This document shows positions 9,118 through 40,395 of a stretch of DNA of 64,000 nt, piece after piece (position 1 is the stretch's first letter; every line of letters begins with the position of its first letter). Under the pieces are notes generated by a model. That model had not been told where the DNA came from and ran no database searches. It saw only the letters and a list, made by a program, of their open reading frames with translations. Source of the stretch: Leptolyngbya sp. FACHB-261 (GTDB lineage: Bacteria; Cyanobacteriota; Cyanobacteriia; FACHB-261); assembly GCF_014696065.1 (NCBI RefSeq), contig NZ_JACJPL010000001.1, positions 310,001 to 374,000 of the forward strand, given 5' to 3'. The position numbers and the translations under genes were made by a program.

Positions 9118-9636
9118 ATGTCTGAGCCGTTCATTGGTGAAATTCGATTATTTGCAGGCAACTTTGCCCCTAGAGGTTGGGCCTTCTGCGATGGGCAACT
9201 CCTGCCCCTTGCTCAAAGCACTGCTCTATTTTCTATTTTGGGCACGACCTATGGAGGCAACGGAAAAACCACTTTTGCTCTGCCAGACCTCCGAGGTCGC
9301 GTGCCAATCCATGCAGGCACTGGGTCAGGTCTTAGCCCCTATGAGCTAGGGCAAGCGGGCGGACAAGAGCAAGTCATGTTGACGGTTGCCGAGTTGCCAA
9401 CTCATAGCCATGATGTGTCTGTCAATAGCAAGAAGGCCAATCAACTGGAGCCAGTTGGGCACATTCTTGCTGAAGCGGAACGACGCAAAATCTACAGCAC
9501 AGGCAATCCAGATGCGACCATGCATTCAGCCACAATTGCCAACACCGGTCACAGCCAACCTCACGAAAACCGGCAACCGTACCTCGCTTTGCATTACATC
9601 ATTGCCTTAGAAGGTTTCTTTCCACCGCAACCCTAG
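9118..9636 (+). CDS. Phage tail-collar domain protein (MdpB-like)
   Basis: 172 aa. The N-terminal ~55 residues are a canonical tail-collar domain (PF07484): GEIRLFAGNFAPRGWAFCDG and LPDLRGRVPIHAG. The rest matches the microcystin-dependent-protein-like family, with conserved ELPTHSHDV and a C-terminal QPYLALHYIIALEG. A good ribosome site (GAGGG, 7 bp) precedes ATG 9118. Such proteins are common in bacterial genomes as single genes outside prophages and in extracellular contractile systems; no other phage genes are near, so this is not evidence of a prophage. Function unknown. Confidence 0.88.
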   Translation: MSEPFIGEIRLFAGNFAPRGWAFCDGQLLPLAQSTALFSILGTTYGGNGKTTFALPDLRGRVPIHAGTGSGLSPYELGQAGGQEQVMLTVAELPTHSHDVSVNSKKANQLEPVGHILAEAERRKIYSTGNPDATMHSATIANTGHSQPHENRQPYLALHYIIALEGFFPPQP

Positions 9637-10716: not shown

Positions 10717-11040
10717 TGGGTTACTTCTCTAGGTCTTAAAATAGGTCTTGAAAATCACAGAATGTTAGGCTTCGTATCTGGGCTGATTATTGCGCTTGAC
10801 GTACACAATTACCATACCTCGATACCAACCAGCATCAAGTAGGCTTTTTTAAGCCTCGACCATGGTTGGTAAGGGCTTCGTACTCAGCTCTGATCAGCTG
10901 ATTTTATCTAGAGAGGCTGGCTCACAGAAGCTCGGCTATCCAGGCTTTAGCAATGGCCCACTCCACGCCTCTATCAAGTAGACGCTATCATCAAAGAGCC
11001 GCAAGGCAACCACATAGTGGAATAGACAAGGGAGATGACC
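10717..11040. other. Divergent intergenic region with nested hairpin
   Basis: No coding sequence seen. At 10823-10871 a 9-bp inverted repeat (TACCAACCA / TGGTTGGTA) encloses a second one (AGGCTT tttt AAGCCT), forming a nested hairpin. It could be a leader structure for the DJ-1-like gene or a remnant of a small repeat. Confidence 0.5.
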
Positions 11041-11730
11041 ATGAAAATACTGATGGTGTTAACATCGCATGACAGACTCGGTGATACTGGCAAAAAAACG
11101 GGATTTTGGTTGGAGGAGTTTGCGGCTCCTTATTATGTATTTAAAGATGCAGGTGCCGAGATTACACTGGCTTCTCCCCAAGGTGGACAGCCGCCCCTTG
11201 ATCCTAAAAGTGACGAACCCGATTCCCAAACCGAGGCAACTATTCGTTTCAAGCAAGATACAGAGGCACAAACAGCCCTAGGTAACACCCTTAAGCTATC
11301 AAGTGTGTCGGGTGAGGATTACGATGCTATATTTTATCCCGGTGGTCACGGGCCTTTGTGGGACCTGTCTGAGGATAAAGATTCCATAGCTTTAATCGAA
11401 GCCATGTATGTTGCGGGCAAGCCTGTAGCTGCCGTTTGCCATGCTCCTAGTGTGTTGCGCAATACCAAAACTCATGAGGGATCTCCCCTAATTGAAGGTA
11501 AGTCTGTAACTGGCTTTTCGAACACGGAAGAAGCAGCTGTTGGTTTGACTGATGTTGTGCCATTTCTCCTTGAGGACGAGCTGAAAAAGAGCGGCGGCAA
11601 ATATTCAAAGGCAGAGAACTGGCAGCCCTATGTCGTTAGCGACGGCAATTTGATTACAGGCCAGAATCCGGCGTCATCTGAAGCAGGAGCAAAGGCAGTC
11701 TTGCAACAGCTAAGTATCGCTTCCTCATGA
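11041..11730 (+). CDS. DJ-1/PfpI family protein (type 1 glutamine amidotransferase-like)
   Basis: 229 aa from the second Met. The ribosome site AAGGGAG ends immediately before the upstream ATG (11035) but sits 5-7 bases from ATG 11041, so the latter is chosen. The protein has the Hsp31/HchA-like layout: MKILMVLTSHDRLGDTG start, FYPGGHGPLWDL oxyanion loop, and the nucleophilic Cys (residue 133) in AAVCHAPSVL. Members are glyoxalase III, chaperones or deglycases that handle methylglyoxal and stress damage; which activity applies here is not determinable. A strong hairpin follows the stop. Confidence 0.88.
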   Translation: MKILMVLTSHDRLGDTGKKTGFWLEEFAAPYYVFKDAGAEITLASPQGGQPPLDPKSDEPDSQTEATIRFKQDTEAQTALGNTLKLSSVSGEDYDAIFYPGGHGPLWDLSEDKDSIALIEAMYVAGKPVAAVCHAPSVLRNTKTHEGSPLIEGKSVTGFSNTEEAAVGLTDVVPFLLEDELKKSGGKYSKAENWQPYVVSDGNLITGQNPASSEAGAKAVLQQLSIASS

Positions 11731-11772: not shown

Positions 11773-11985
11773 TTCTTAAGTACAAGGCTCAATGGTAAAT
11801 TAATCAATCCCTATCGCTACGCAAACACTTTGACCGACGCCAAGGTACGCTTCTATTGGAGTGGCAAGTTTTACAGTTGTGTAGCTGCGGAGGGAGTTCT
11901 CTCAGCCTTAGAACTGGCACCTGAAGCGAGAAAAGATATTCTGATTCTTTTAACGGATGGTCTCAGGGTTTGTTTGATCGTTTAG
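11773..11985 (+). pseudogene. Coding-like remnant without a start
   Basis: One plus frame is open for 70 codons up to TAG at 11983. It reads like real protein (NPYRYANTLTDAKVRFYWSG, then CVAAEGVLSALELAPEARKD), yet has no initiator and its upstream side runs into the terminator hairpin. The last ~35 bp overlap the 3' end of the HNH gene. It looks like the tail of a lost gene. Family not recognised. Confidence 0.3.
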
Positions 11986-12423
11986 GGATCGAAGTAGTTT
12001 ACTAGGACGTGCAGATTTCACAGCAAGATAGAGTACGGGATATCGAGTGAACATATAATGCTCATACTCATACCAATGCATATCCCCTTTTCTTTGGTTA
12101 CAGGCCCTGCAAATCACCCACAAATTTTCGAAGTTCAGTGACAACCAAGGATACTGTGCCCTGGGTAGTTTGTGATCGATAGTCTTACCGCCAGTTTTAG
12201 AGTAGCTTTTCTCACAAATTGGGCAATCCCAGTCGGAGTGGTCTTTTACCCAATCCTTACTCTCCTGGGTTGTTCCACACTCAAAGTCACCGCTCACATA
12301 GCGCCAGTAATCGAATCTCCTGTAGTCTTCAAAATCTTGAGGAGTTAATCTGTGATATCGCTTACCACCAATTTCGTCCGCGAGCCTAAATAGTTCCCCA
12401 AGTTCCTTCCCCTCAAGATTCAT
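11950..12423 (-). CDS. HNH endonuclease, last gene of a three-gene operon
   Basis: 157 aa. The HNH/zinc-ribbon core is complete: CPIC (C67, C70), the DH pair D83-H84 in KTIDHKLPRA, Asn100 in NFENLWVICRAC, second knuckle C105/C108, then Asn109 and Lys112. These residues bind the catalytic metal and structural zinc in HNH nucleases, which cut DNA. An N-terminal stretch (residues 8-35, LGELFRLADEIGGKRY) resembles a stretch in the upstream gene. Start 12423 is 11 bp after the neighbour's stop, so the operon reads coiled-coil, basic protein, HNH. Phage defence or mobile DNA processing are both possible; context favours a small defence-type module but there is no direct proof. Confidence 0.85.
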   Translation of the reverse strand: MNLEGKELGELFRLADEIGGKRYHRLTPQDFEDYRRFDYWRYVSGDFECGTTQESKDWVKDHSDWDCPICEKSYSKTGGKTIDHKLPRAQYPWLSLNFENLWVICRACNQRKGDMHWYEYEHYMFTRYPVLYLAVKSARPSKLLRSLNDQTNPETIR

Positions 12424-12434
12424 AGCCTCTCTCC

Positions 12435-12866
12435 CTAGGATCTAACAGTTCCATAGGACTTTTGATTGCGTTTTTTTCGAGCTTTTTGGTCAGCTTTAGT
12501 GCTGAAATCAATGGTTTCAACTTCAATGTCAGGAAACTGCCGATCGACCTCTTCTGCAATCTCGTTGACTTCTTCAGATAGCCTTTGATTAAACTCTTGT
12601 ATCTCTCGATTGGTAATATATTTGTTGCCGATGCGATCAGCTTCTAAAAATAGTTCCCCAAGGGTCAGCTCCTCTAATTCGTATTTATCTAAAAATTCCT
12701 GGATTTTCTGAAACAAATTGACAACATTGTCCCAACCAACATTTCTATAGCTATTGTCCCTCAGCCATTGCTGGTCTTCTTTGCGAAGTTTAGCTCGCTT
12801 CCTAGAGTTAGCACGCTGAACCTCGTGGTAGCTCATTGCGTTAAACTTTCTTTTTTGGCTTGCCAT
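12435..12866 (-). CDS. Unknown small charged protein of the HNH operon
   Basis: 143 aa, Lys/Arg-rich at both ends (SRKRAKLRKEDQQW at the start, KADQKARKKRNQK at the end) with an acidic, helical centre. Residues 69-95 contain LGELFLEADRIGNKYITNRE, a pattern that recurs at the N-terminus of the HNH nuclease next door. No known domain is recognised. Spacing to its neighbours is 12 and 11 bp, so the three genes are certainly one transcript. The basic ends suggest nucleic-acid binding; the shared motif suggests both proteins bind the same partner, possibly the coiled-coil protein. Both are inferences. Confidence 0.7.
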   Translation of the reverse strand: MASQKRKFNAMSYHEVQRANSRKRAKLRKEDQQWLRDNSYRNVGWDNVVNLFQKIQEFLDKYELEELTLGELFLEADRIGNKYITNREIQEFNQRLSEEVNEIAEEVDRQFPDIEVETIDFSTKADQKARKKRNQKSYGTVRS

Positions 12867-12878
12867 TAGTTTAAGTCC

Positions 12879-13463
12879 TTAACCTAGCGTTGAACCAAAC
12901 ATTTTAATGAGCGCCTTTCGAATTTCACTGTCTTCATATTGCAAAAGCTTCTTTGTGCTCATCGCTAGCTTGAGTCTAATTTCGTCAACCAAGTTCTTTA
13001 AGGCTTTGTTATCCTTTTTGAGTTGATCATTTGCTTCTGTCAACTCATTGTTCCGAGAACTTAGAGTTTTGACTTCAACCCCTAAATCTCTATTCTCAGC
13101 AGATAATTTTTGAATATCAGCTTCCAGCTTTTCTCTTTCCTGCTCTAATTGCTTTTTTCTAGCTCCAAGCGGTTCTTTGTTTTTCTCTAGAGTTTTAATA
13201 GACTCTTCTAAACCGCGATACTCTGTTTTCAGGGATTTCAGTTTACTTTCTGCCTGGTTACGCATCCTTGAGTAGTAGGAGTTCTTGTTCCCCAGGCTAG
13301 AATTCTTTTGAGCAAAAGATTCGACAAGTTTGATTGCACTGGGCTCTCTACTGAGAAGGTGAAGTATCTTCTGACATTCCTCCTTACTCAGTTCCTGGCT
13401 GATATTCTTATTGATACCGTATTTTTCTTTCAGTATACTTTGGAGCTCATCTTTTGACGCCAT
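12879..13463 (-). CDS. Coiled-coil protein, first gene of the HNH operon
   Basis: 194 aa. Residues 1-50 form a small globular part (MASKDELQSILKEKYGI...). Residues ~65-170 are a long, heptad-rich coiled coil (Lys/Glu/Leu-rich, e.g. ARKKQLEQEREKLEADIQKL and NNELTEANDQLKKDNKALKN). A short tail follows. No enzymatic motif. It begins the operon, 12 bp before the second gene. The pairing of a coiled-coil sensor or scaffold with a nuclease is a recurring layout in uncharacterised defence modules, but this particular trio is not one I recognise. Confidence 0.72.
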   Translation of the reverse strand: MASKDELQSILKEKYGINKNISQELSKEECQKILHLLSREPSAIKLVESFAQKNSSLGNKNSYYSRMRNQAESKLKSLKTEYRGLEESIKTLEKNKEPLGARKKQLEQEREKLEADIQKLSAENRDLGVEVKTLSSRNNELTEANDQLKKDNKALKNLVDEIRLKLAMSTKKLLQYEDSEIRKALIKMFGSTLG

Positions 13464-14110
13464 TAGTTACCTCCAGAAATTAGCATTTCAACTACATGGG
13501 GATAGATCATAAGATCCCAATTGCTATACCAAGCCAATCTACCGTAGCGAAAGAAACTTGCATATTCATGCTATACAGAGGTCAGGTCCCTGTGTGTGTA
13601 TTGTTCCCAGTTTTTACGTGGCTCAGCACGATTTTCATTTATTCTTCATTCAATCTTAGTGATATTGCGGTGTGGGTTGACTCCACCTGTCCTAAATCTA
13701 CTGAGATCATTCAGTTGCTTCAGAGGCAGTAATCTCCAGGCAGCAAAACCTATACAAAGCACCTTGTACCAAACTTTTTGCTTCGCATCGTCTAGCGCAA
13801 CTTCTTTGGTTAGTATAACAACGGCTCCTTTCGAGGCAGAATACACCGCCAAGAAAGGTTTAGAGACCAAATCATTGACACTAGAGATTATGATTCACAT
13901 AATGCAATCGCCACGCCTCTACACCTTCTGATGCGGCATTTAATAGATACTATTGAGAGCCGATTCCAGCCTAAGCAAGTTGTTCAGTCCAATCAGATTC
14001 GCTGTAACTGCAACTTAAAAGACAAAATAGTTTCACCGACTCAAGAGCGAATGGTACTTCGAATCGAGGGTAGCCTGATATTCCGCTCACTGAGCACAGA
14101 CGGGTTTGAA
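13464..14110. other. Gene-poor region with decayed sequence
   Basis: About 650 bp upstream of the HNH operon holds no intact gene. The only recognisable coding piece is the SDR fragment at 13745-13870. Short frames on both strands lack family features. Confidence 0.5.
13745..13870 (-). pseudogene. Short-chain dehydrogenase fragment
   Basis: About 40 codons read FLAVYSASKGAVVILTKEVA followed by LDDAKQKVWYKVLC. The YxxxK catalytic pair and its helix are unmistakably from a classical SDR, but the NAD-binding N-terminus and the C-terminus are absent. A remnant of a deleted gene. Confidence 0.7.
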
Positions 14111-14180: not shown

Positions 14181-15134
14181 TCACAGCACTGCAAGATCCT
14201 TAAAGCAGCGACGTGTCAATTCTAGACGAGCGGCTGGATCTTTCTCACTGCGAATGTCAATATTAGTGGCAAAAAAGTAAGTATTTTCGCCTTTCTCCAA
14301 ATAGCCGACGTACCATCCAATTTTCGGCATTACATCATCCGCAAACCCTACCCAACCTGTCTTACCTCGGATTGTGTAGTCTGGAGTTTTCTCCATAATC
14401 ATAATGTCTTTGACAAGGGAGAAAGATCTCTCAGAGAAGGGTAAATCGTTATTGTAGAGACGGCGAAGAAACTGAATTTGCTCTTGAGGTGTGATGCGAA
14501 GTTCTCCCTCTAACCAGAATTTGTCAATGTCATCCTTACCACCAATTCTTCGATTGCCGTAGCCTAATTGAGCTACCCATTTTTGCATTTGCTCGTAGCC
14601 CACTCGACGAGCTAGCACTTGATAAAACCAAATGGCGGAAAGCTTGATTGCCTCTCTCATATTCAAGTCTCGGTTCCAGGCAGGAACCTTTCTTTGAATT
14701 CCATCCCAGGTTAAAACGGCAGCTTCATCTGAAATGACTCCAGTCTCCAACGAGATTAGAGAATTGAGAATCTTGAATGTTGATGAAGGTAAAAAAGCGG
14801 TTGAATTTCGATTGGGGTTATGTTGATAAGTCCGATTATTCTTCAAATCCTGGATTAGGATAGAGCCTTCTACGTTCAAGTCTCGAAAGTGCCTTGAAAA
14901 ATCGATTTCTCGATTAGCGTTTGATTGAGCGACTTCCGTACTAGAAGGTTGAACCTTTAGAGCTGGGAGCGTTGAAGCTACCTGTATAGACTGAAACAAG
15001 ACGGCAGCTATACAAGCCAAGGTTAGAAAAGCAGCAATAGACAAATGAAGGATTCGACCCGCAGGCTTCGATAGGGAAAGAAATCGTGAGCGGGATTGAA
15101 CTACTCTCACCCAATTTCTGATTCTAGAATTCAT
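14181..15134 (-). CDS. Class D (OXA-type) serine beta-lactamase
   Basis: 317 aa. Residues ~28-50 are a hydrophobic signal or anchor. The class D active site is complete: S118-T-F-K121 (nucleophile Ser and carbamylated Lys in PSSTFKILNSL), S166-A-I (second motif), Y192-G-N194, Trp208 in FWLEGELRITP, and K258-T-G260 in RGKTGWVGF. The enzyme opens beta-lactam rings in the periplasm; BlaR1/MecR1 sensor domains share the fold, but the Trp/WLEG segment and absence of a metalloprotease part indicate an enzyme. A candidate attC-like site lies just after its stop, which fits capture as a cassette. Spectrum of activity cannot be predicted. Confidence 0.88.
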   Translation of the reverse strand: MNSRIRNWVRVVQSRSRFLSLSKPAGRILHLSIAAFLTLACIAAVLFQSIQVASTLPALKVQPSSTEVAQSNANREIDFSRHFRDLNVEGSILIQDLKNNRTYQHNPNRNSTAFLPSSTFKILNSLISLETGVISDEAAVLTWDGIQRKVPAWNRDLNMREAIKLSAIWFYQVLARRVGYEQMQKWVAQLGYGNRRIGGKDDIDKFWLEGELRITPQEQIQFLRRLYNNDLPFSERSFSLVKDIMIMEKTPDYTIRGKTGWVGFADDVMPKIGWYVGYLEKGENTYFFATNIDIRSEKDPAARLELTRRCFKDLAVL

Positions 15135-16242: not shown

Positions 16243-17145
16243 ATGAAGACAGCTACTGTTCGCCTGTCTAATATTCTGCTGACTGCTCTAGCACCGATGA
16301 CTTGGGGAACGACTTATGTTGTGGCAACTGAGCTCCTGCCGCCCAACCATCCACTATTGGTGGCTTCCTTACGTTCCCTGCCGATTGGTATTCTACTGAC
16401 AGCATGGTTGAGACAACTGCCTAAAGGTATTTGGTGGTGGCGTATTTTGATCTTGGGCAGCCTCAATATCGGAATCTTTCAGGCGCTATTATTTATAGCT
16501 GCTTATCGCCTTCCAGGTGGCGTTGCTGCAACAGCAGGCGCGATCCAGCCTTTATTAGTCGTATTGTTTTCCTGGACAATATTGAAAGAGAACCCGTCTA
16601 AGCTGTCTATTGTGGCAGCAATTGCTGGCTTTGTAGGTGTCGGGTTACTGGTTCTCGGCCCTACTGCGCGCCTTGATAGTGTTGGCATTGTTGCCGCGAT
16701 CGCTGGAGCCGCAACAATGGGTCTAGGAACGGTACTAGTCAAACGGTGGAAACGCCCAGTTTCTCTACTTGTCTTTACAGCGTGGCAGTTAGCAGTTGGC
16801 GGAATCGTTTTGCTGCCAATTGCTCTAGTGATTGAAGGACCAATCACTCATCTCTCAACAACCAATCTGTTGGGCTTTGTTTATTTGGGCTTAGTCGGGA
16901 CTGGAGTTGCTTATGCACTTTGGTTCCGGGGAATCGATAAACTCAAAGCATCGGCTGTTGCATGTTTGGGGTTAATGAGCCCTGTTGTCGCAACACTCAT
17001 TGGATTCGTCTTACTACACCAAACATTTACGCCAATTCAACTCATTGGGATTGCGATTGTGCTGATGAGTGTTTTGATCGGACAAGGACGTGGTCGATTA
17101 CGCCAACGCTCATCTAATACTTTCAAAGCACGGTTCAAAAAATGA
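16243..17145 (+). CDS. EamA-family (DMT) transporter
   Basis: 300 aa with about ten hydrophobic segments and the internal duplication of two EamA domains: first half starting LSNILLTALAPMTWGTTYVV, second half near VGIVAAIAGAATMGLGTVLV. A basic tail (RGRLRQRSSNTFKARFKK) lies inside. Family members export amino acids, purines or drugs across the inner membrane. ATG 16243 lies five bases after the right operator copy. Regulation by the divergent MarR is strongly suggested; the substrate is not. Confidence 0.92.
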   Translation: MKTATVRLSNILLTALAPMTWGTTYVVATELLPPNHPLLVASLRSLPIGILLTAWLRQLPKGIWWWRILILGSLNIGIFQALLFIAAYRLPGGVAATAGAIQPLLVVLFSWTILKENPSKLSIVAAIAGFVGVGLLVLGPTARLDSVGIVAAIAGAATMGLGTVLVKRWKRPVSLLVFTAWQLAVGGIVLLPIALVIEGPITHLSTTNLLGFVYLGLVGTGVAYALWFRGIDKLKASAVACLGLMSPVVATLIGFVLLHQTFTPIQLIGIAIVLMSVLIGQGRGRLRQRSSNTFKARFKK

Positions 17146-17289
17146 CTTGCAGTTTTGCACGCTCATGAAGGGACTACTCTGAGGCATTGCTCCACCGTTA
17201 AGTCTAAAACACTACGTCGTCGAGAATGTCACGCAAGTTAATTTTGAAATCAAAAGGCAGCTTTTAGGTTGCTGCCCGCGTAGCATTTT

Positions 17290-17715
17290 CTAATCGTGCC
17301 GGTTTTGCTGCTCATTTCCAAGAAAATCTATAAATACTCTCACCTTGGGCAATAGGTAGCGATGCCGTGGGAAGATGGCATAAATTCCTCCATCATTATC
17401 ATCTTCATAATCAGTTAGCAGCCGTATTAATCGCCCTGTCTTGAGGTCATCCTCTGCTAAAGCAGCTGCAATTCGACCAATTCCCAATCCTGTTAACACA
17501 GATTGATATAACGCGGCTCCACTGTTGATCTCAAGATTTCCCCGCACGCTGATTTCTCGTATTTCTAATTTATGTTTCAAGCGCCATTGATTGAGTGTTG
17601 TCCTTTGTGCATTTAATATCAGACAGTTGTGCTGCACCAAATCATCAGGGGGTTTTTGGAATGCCATATCGTTCAACGTACTTAGGAGCCGCACAGATAA
17701 TACGCCGATTCGGCT
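17290..17715 (-). pseudogene. LysR-type regulator, truncated and frameshifted
   Basis: Only the C-terminal half of a LysR effector domain remains. Upstream frame RRIICAAPKYVERYGIPKTP meets a stop at an A5C5 run (17649-17658); removing one C restores PDDLVQHNCLIL and the rest (LTGLGIGRIAAALAEDDLKT). The HTH domain is missing: the frame ends abruptly at a junction with the SDR piece to its right. Confidence 0.8.
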
Positions 17716-17961
17716 GGGCAGCTGGGGCTGATGCACTATTATGCTCAGCATTTGATATCTGAGGGAATCACAGCAAATGCAATTCCCCCTGCGTTAATAG
17801 ATACGGATATAATCGCGGCTCTAAGCGGCATTCCGATCACCATTCCGATTGGGCGTTTCGGAACACCCGAAGAAGTGGCAGAAGTCGCTGTGATGTTAGC
17901 ATGCAACGGTTACATCACAGGCCAGACAATCAATGTCAACGGAGGTTTGTACTTGGCATAG
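17716..17961 (+). pseudogene. SDR C-terminal fragment fused to the LysR remnant
   Basis: About 75 residues: YYAQHLISEGITANAIPPAL, then GRFGTPEEVAEVAVMLACNG and GQTINVNGGLYLA. This is the classical SDR ending (substrate-loop plus the C-terminal NVNGG motif), without the NAD-binding half or the YxxxK helix. Head-to-head abutment with the LysR piece near 17715 indicates a deletion removed both 5' halves of a divergent LysR/SDR pair. Confidence 0.8.
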
Positions 17962-39129: not shown

Positions 39130-40395
39130 TTAATTTGACGCTGCTAGCTTGAGCGAAAAGTCATCTAAAGAAACATATATAGTGCCTTGATCCTGAAAGA
39201 TTCTTTGTATACGTGTATTCGGTGGATTTTTGCTCAAAGCTGAATAAACCTCTGGCCAGTGAAGAACAATGTCGATCGGATTTCCAACAATCACAACTCC
39301 AATTATCGATTCTTCTAAATCTGAATCAGGTTGCTCCTTGTTATTGTTCCACCGATCTTGCCACTTCTCTTTGGCACTTGGAGCCCAAGAACTATCATTA
39401 CAGTCATACTGAAATCCATTCCCAAAATGAATGTAGTACACTCCCGGCTTTTTTGGAGCATTCAAACTAATGTCATGCTCGCCGTTATCATCTCCTCCCT
39501 TATAACCCTGAACTACGTCAACATCTATACAATCTGTTGATTCATTCTCACTTGGAATCCCAAACACGATTTGATTAATTGTACCAGGGCTACTATTACT
39601 CCAACGTTCTGCAAGTGCTTGGCTGTAAGAGAGCCCATATTTTGTGCTGCCGCTAATATGTTGCTCTGGTTGAGCAACAATTACGTTGGGTCGATGGCGC
39701 AAAGTCGATATAGTATTTCCTGCTAGTGTGAGTGGTACCGCAATAGCCGCCCCGACTGCTGCCAGAGTAACGCTAAAGGTCCGTATCTGATTGGCTCGTC
39801 GCGTTCTCTCTGCCTTCCGACTTGCTTCCACATAGGCGACCTGTAGCTCAGTCGGTTGTGGTTGTTTACTCGCCCCTTGCAACAACCAGGCTTCCGCGCT
39901 CTCTAAATTCGCCCCTCGCAGCAGGTAACTCTCATTTCGGTTTTTATTCTTCCACTCGATCGCTCCCACTTCCAAGCGTGTATGCTCCTGCACATACTTT
40001 AAATCAGTCTCGATCACTCGAATTAGTTCCGCAAACGTCGTCTCGAATTGATCGCTCTCCCGCATAAACAGCCAATTCAGCTTTCCCAGTGCTCCATGAA
40101 CAGTCTCAGCCTGCACCTCGCGATGGACGATCGGAACCAGTCGCTTGTTGTGTCTGACTGCGTGATTGATCTCAGCATTGCAGTGTTTAGAAGCCACAGA
40201 ATCGGGACTGATGACAAACACAAAGGTATTGGTGCCTTCGATGCCGCGCTCAATTGCCTGCCACCAATCTTCGGTCCACTCAATGCCATCCCAATCTACC
40301 CACGTTTTTTGCTGCTGGCTGCGTAGGGCATCGTGCAGCTTCTGGACGAAGGGTTTATCCTTGCGAGAGTAAGAGATGAAAACGCCACTCATCAT
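39130..40395 (-). CDS. TIR-domain protein with membrane segment and unknown C-terminus
   Basis: 421 aa. TIR domain (~1-135): MMSGVFISYSRKDKPFVQKL start, FVFVISPDSVASKHCNAEIN with the catalytic Glu75, VIETDLKYVQEHT end. A helical linker (LRGANLESAEAWLLQGASKQ, ~155-195) is shared with cyanobacterial TIR-WD40 signalling proteins. A membrane helix lies at ~205-226. The C-terminal ~190 residues are of unknown fold. Bacterial TIR proteins can be NADases of phage defence; this one may be a membrane-tethered stress or defence effector. No partner gene is evident. Site J follows the stop. Confidence 0.86.
   Translation of the reverse strand: MMSGVFISYSRKDKPFVQKLHDALRSQQQKTWVDWDGIEWTEDWWQAIERGIEGTNTFVFVISPDSVASKHCNAEINHAVRHNKRLVPIVHREVQAETVHGALGKLNWLFMRESDQFETTFAELIRVIETDLKYVQEHTRLEVGAIEWKNKNRNESYLLRGANLESAEAWLLQGASKQPQPTELQVAYVEASRKAERTRRANQIRTFSVTLAAVGAAIAVPLTLAGNTISTLRHRPNVIVAQPEQHISGSTKYGLSYSQALAERWSNSSPGTINQIVFGIPSENESTDCIDVDVVQGYKGGDDNGEHDISLNAPKKPGVYYIHFGNGFQYDCNDSSWAPSAKEKWQDRWNNNKEQPDSDLEESIIGVVIVGNPIDIVLHWPEVYSALSKNPPNTRIQRIFQDQGTIYVSLDDFSLKLAASN

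Follow-up and report, generated by a model that had tools for sequence, protein, structure and literature searches.

A co-inherited CC-BAS-HNH nuclease module of cyanobacteria: a mobile three-gene unit with a possible role against invading DNA

Organisation of the locus

The window analysed here is a stretch of 64,000 nucleotides from Leptolyngbya sp. FACHB-261 (contig NZ_JACJPL010000001.1, positions 310,001 to 374,000), and coordinates refer to it unless another locus is named. Three open reading frames with ATG starts follow one another on its reverse strand as a single unit (13463-11950 (-)), with a hairpin beyond its end:

12879-13463, (-): gene 1, CC, a coiled-coil protein of 194 aa
12435-12866, (-): gene 2, BAS, a basic helical protein of 143 aa
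11950-12423, (-): gene 3, HNH, an HNH nuclease of 157 aa
11739-11772, strand not assigned: perfect 15-bp inverted repeat, a terminator-like hairpin beyond the end of HNH

The genes are separated by 12 nt (CC-BAS) and 11 nt (BAS-HNH), in agreement with a first-pass annotation of the window that had described three same-strand genes with gaps of 11-12 bp. Its description of the products, as a 194-aa coiled-coil protein and a 143-aa charged protein of no recognised family together with a complete HNH endonuclease, is also upheld. CC gives generic coiled-coil matches only and falls into no convincing family in Pfam, PHROGs, NCBIfam or PADLOC; no convincing family was found in these four collections for BAS either, which is basic at both ends. 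The product of the third gene belongs to PF01844, scoring 31.1 bits against a curated cut-off of 21.4.

The hairpin lies between the trio and a convergent gene (11035-11730) which we take to encode a DJ-1/PfpI-like protein, and an Rfam search found no RNA near the trio. An open stretch (AEGVLSALELAPEARKDILILLTDG; 11788-11985 (+)) overlaps the end of HNH and is possibly a gene fragment bordering the unit; the HNH protein of the window exceeds its relatives in length by about 8 aa. Upstream of the trio are a short stretch similar to a short-chain dehydrogenase (YSASKGAV; 13646-13870 (-)) and a gene with a product that reads like a class D beta-lactamase or penicillin-binding domain (14181-15134 (-)).

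Recurrence and distribution of the trio

Reading of the DNA showed all three genes complete, in the order CC-BAS-HNH, at 39 cyanobacterial loci. Plasmid pMB01 of Acaryochloris sp. 'Moss Beach' carries one of these, and in 25 of the 39 CC and BAS are exactly 12 nt apart. The recurrence of both order and spacing places the trio far beyond chance. Strong homologues of BAS (E <1e-25) and of HNH (E <1e-60) were found in an identical set of 11 of the 386 sampled cyanobacterial genomes. Within one family, the BAS profile matches in 37 of 218 genomes, always as a single copy except in one genome with a second copy, of type 2. CC-BAS-HNH is almost certainly a co-inherited three-gene nuclease module. 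Co-occurrence in other genomes had been proposed as a check on the first-pass annotation, with membership of a known housekeeping operon as the alternative; the trio recurs, and corresponds to no known housekeeping operon. Literature searches returned no description of this trio or of a system like it.

The sampling covers cyanobacteria, with the chromosomes of other phyla represented by one exact-pattern scan. Searches of viruses, phages and plasmids yielded the type 1 module on Acaryochloris pMB01 only; no copy of the trio was found in phage or IMG/VR records, and no type 2 BAS in phages, so that these records give no sign of counter-defence or of an origin in phages.

The neighbours of the trio differ between most sites, and it occupies unrelated positions on different chromosomes. 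Many copies are solitary, their neighbours being ordinary genes (recA/xseA, purH, smc and hemB, for example). About 12 loci of one genus have recA on one side of the trio and xseA/xseB on the other, and smc adjoins it at two loci; about two thirds of the recA-site genus lack it.

Selection, transfer and loss

Each of the three genes is under purifying selection, with dN/dS of 0.1-0.3 in most comparisons. The tree of CC conflicts with that of BAS and HNH in only one of 15 strongly supported splits, whereas the BAS and HNH tree conflicts with the RecA tree in five of 13; the one obvious artefact of the RecA tree, the long branch of genome G174, lies outside the listed conflicts. This pattern indicates that the three genes travel together. 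Two genomes of different genera, G153 and G419, share a trio of at least 99% nucleotide identity while their recA genes are 88% identical, and their smc-side flanks are 94% identical, so that the exchange took in flanking DNA. In the otherwise unrelated sites L071 and L073, the common segment is 1.94 kb long and extends past the trio by roughly 50-110 nt in each direction.

Loss can be followed as well. Beside recA, at the position of the complete trio in sister species, three genomes of one genus carry only a decayed piece of CC, and HNH was not found in the partial locus L088. The partial locus of Chlorogloeopsis fritschii PCC 6912 (L022, which seems to be identical with L099) retains an intact HNH but has lost CC and the initial third of BAS; since the promoter region probably went with them, the survival of HNH carries little weight. 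Transfer, shared segments and remnants together indicate that the module is acquired, transferred and lost in one piece.

The movement of a unit of ~1.9 kb between unrelated sites would also suit a selfish element, in which the three-gene cassette is propagated by HNH acting as a homing-type nuclease; homing enzymes often contain HNH domains. This reading is very improbable. The module is normally present in one copy per genome, a common target site was not seen, and a homing gene would not usually come with two additional conserved genes. Terminal repeats did not exceed chance expectation in the majority of 23 loci and were convincing in none, which, with the low copy number, also sets the module apart from transposons and insertion sequences.

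Two observations on the flanks may be added. XisI genes lie near the trio at three sites (L025 6903-7238, L073 4275-4610 and L087 4496-4843), and the CC gene of L027 (7094) starts with an XisI-like stretch; the genomes concerned hold only 3-12 XisI copies, the proximity was noted post hoc, and two of the sites may share ancestry. At L024, additional copies of the smc 3′ end (16953-17565, 17661-17917 and 11125-11340) are found on the same contig as an early-ending smc reading frame that adjoins the trio, and reflect either an interrupted gene or an assembly effect.

Genomic neighbourhood and known defence genes

The 146 proteins encoded within 4.7 kb of 20 trio sites matched nine PADLOC families at E 1e-15, mostly generic ones. 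In 20 regions chosen arbitrarily, for the most part in these genomes, 140 proteins matched 63 families. With so small a number of control regions, a single rich one can have a large influence, and the comparison rules out strong enrichment only. The module thus lies outside defence islands. The first-pass annotation had envisaged an undescribed defence or DNA-processing system, with closeness to known defence genes as a further check: an uncharacterised unit with a nuclease is indeed what the locus holds, but the expected closeness did not materialise, the trio sites having fewer such matches than the random regions. The many copies that stand alone among housekeeping genes likewise count against a defence role.

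This lack of enrichment counts in favour of a rival explanation, an accessory DNA-processing or repair complex in which HNH would be a structure-specific nuclease and CC and BAS its loading factors, with foreign DNA not involved. The strong purifying selection and the positions beside recA-xseA/xseB and smc are in keeping with such a complex. However, the trio is patchy (11/386 in the phylum) even within the recA-site genus, the linkage to recA is inherited within that one genus and the neighbours elsewhere are unrelated, and the trio is carried on plasmids and has been repeatedly lost. A repair function is considered unlikely.

The HNH nuclease and its nearest known systems

Residues C67, C70, C105 and C108, the pair D83-H84, N100, N109 and K112, which include the metal and catalytic residues, are invariant in 33 HNH homologues; the structure model of the protein has a mean pLDDT of 60. 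Among defence proteins, the models nearest to the HNH domain are PtuB (E 2e-10) and PDC-M01B (E 9e-12). The core layout DH..PR..P...f.NL...C..CN..K is common to the module protein and to the PtuB-type nucleases of Septu and retrons, and Septu resembles the trio further in being a small multi-gene module with a partner protein. The PtuB match, though, extends little past the HNH core, and the module protein scores 13.5 bits where the PtuB equivalog cut-off is 150, and 20.5 bits where that of TIGR02646 (retron HNH effectors) is 52.15. Nor does the trio have a PtuA-type ATPase: a P-loop motif is absent from every CC and BAS protein examined. Its operon has three genes only, without the reverse transcriptase of retrons, and in contrast to both systems it includes two partner proteins without a known family. 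The PADLOC candidate PDC-M01B is the best-scoring HNH model, but its profile has 285 positions and the match is limited to residues 57-115 of the module protein, so the likeness is confined to the HNH core. Type II HNH restriction enzymes are similar in combining an HNH nuclease with mobility and a patchy distribution; they differ in their methyltransferase, which is absent both from the trio and from the PADLOC families matched by the 146 neighbouring proteins at 20 sites.

The matches to PtuB and PDC-M01B raise the alternative of an abortive system that cleaves RNA, for example tRNA, and would be Septu-like with a sensor other than an ATPase. The cleavage site of Septu is reported to lie in the variable loop of tRNA-Tyr (PMC13096335). 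The score far under the PtuB family cut-off and the missing ATPase make such an RNA-cleaving system decidedly improbable for the module.

The two partner proteins and a shared motif

The C-terminal ~70 aa of CC are conserved among its homologues, with a constant pattern (LKNxVDxIxLxLAxxTKxLLQYEDSEIRKAL...G) and an invariant Gly as the last residue. On this constant C-terminus, the N-terminal ~75 aa occur in two unrelated forms, which suggests an exchangeable recognition part. The apparent interchangeability of CC N-termini is a new observation of this analysis. A match of the CC N-terminus to IF2_N (E 0.0015) was rejected, as other members do not reproduce it.

The net charge of BAS alternates along its length, from +7 (residues 1-62) to -13 (residues 63-120) and back to +7 (residues 121-143). 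Structure prediction, which the first-pass annotation had recommended for the two unassigned proteins, gave a confident result for one part of BAS only, an N-terminal domain of three helices that spans about residues 8-65, with pLDDT mostly >90. Seven residues within this domain (Y13, Q17, N20, L27, Y40, N42 and W45) are invariant across BAS types 1 and 2. Comparison of the predicted structure with the PDB gave no match at E 0.001; the best VIA-align Z of 5.3, over 56 residues of a small helical domain, may reflect a common arrangement, and no function is drawn from it. Weak matches to one AbiEi model of the AbiE system were obtained for BAS of 17 of the 39 members (best E 1e-5), covering residues 71-117 of the window protein. 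In contrast to AbiE, the match is confined to the helical second half of BAS and the module has no AbiEii partner.

Profile alignment of BAS with HNH (hhalign) relates a segment of each protein at P ~1e-6:

12591-12680, (-): motif copy in BAS, residues 63-92 (LxELFxxADxIGNKYxT..EF)
12322-12420, (-): second motif copy in HNH, residues 2-34

On this alignment, a motif of ~30 aa appears duplicated between the two genes, and this duplication is likewise a new observation. In the window the two copies also share 15 identical nucleotides (12388-12402 in HNH, 12648-12662 in BAS), an identity that is missing in most homologues.

A wider family of three-gene modules

Distant relatives of BAS are found in other trios, which consist of a helical protein, a BAS-like protein of 105-117 aa and an HNH variant. 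Cyanobacterial chromosomes carry such trios, as do four plasmids of cyanobacteria, and in one plasmid case type I restriction genes lie next to the trio. Their HNH cores are related in profile comparisons (P 2e-5 to 3e-17). In a third type, at L116, a related HNH is accompanied by a protein that replaces BAS and weakly matches DUF3173 (E 0.036); its start is presumably helix-turn-helix-like. Homology of the first gene is suggestive only between types 1 and 3 (P 6e-4) and was not detectable by profile comparison with types 2a and 2b. A wider search with the type 3 first gene gave no convincing second example. In one genome, the N-terminal domain of BAS is found on other tails (L033 6577-7152, Pro/Gln-rich, and L038 3838-4377), and no HNH neighbour was detected at either site.

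One nucleotide past the type 3 module, L116 4048-4401 and 3613-4017 are read as an MNT nucleotidyltransferase and a HEPN-like partner. This neighbouring pair speaks for a toxin-antitoxin or addiction-like explanation, according to which CC and BAS restrain an HNH toxin that is freed when the cell is stressed or the module is lost. Genes of RelE, VapC and BrnT type near several loci point in the same direction, and the module is small, mobile, patchy and found on plasmids, as such systems would be. On the other hand, it has three genes with the putative toxin last, none of which gave a convincing match to a toxin-antitoxin or antitoxin family, and HNH persists in L099/L022 although CC and the initial third of BAS are deleted, a point that is not decisive given the probable loss of the promoter. 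We consider an addiction function distinctly unlikely.

Proposed function

Patchiness, horizontal transfer, loss, plasmid carriage and the presence of a nuclease fit a conflict module. The reading that we favour, tentatively and at somewhat short of even confidence, is that the trio is a mobile, dispensable three-protein nuclease module whose products act together, most likely against invading DNA of phages or plasmids. Considered by itself, intracellular defence against foreign DNA may be the likeliest role, an assignment that is made by analogy and is likewise provisional.

If the trio does act in this way, CC and BAS would be partners that position HNH or switch it on. CC could serve as a coiled-coil scaffold, its exchangeable N-terminus sensing or recognising and its constant C-terminus docking, and nucleic acid might be bound by the basic N-terminal three-helix domain of BAS. 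The duplicated motif may then dock BAS and HNH on the same partner surface, or BAS may gate HNH; finally HNH, with its conserved active site, would cleave nucleic acid. A more far-reaching proposal, which we regard as doubtful, is that of an undescribed class of cyanobacterial immunity, in which a CC scaffold with exchangeable sensors and an adaptor bearing the nuclease's own docking motif control HNH, and in which the wider family, with its other small middle proteins, works alike.

The module would extend the accessory genes of cyanobacteria, whose conflict systems have been little tested, by an undescribed nuclease system and two protein families without an assigned function. Direct predictions on sensing and on control of the nuclease follow from the exchangeable N-termini and the duplicated motif.

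Two further genes of the window are recorded separately. By reading, 9118-9636 (+) encodes a tail-collar-like protein (GEIRLFAGNFAPRGWAFCDGQ) with no visible prophage around it, and 39130-40395 (-) a protein with a TIR-like domain at its start (FISYSRKDKPFV) and, after it, a hydrophobic segment that looks membrane-like.
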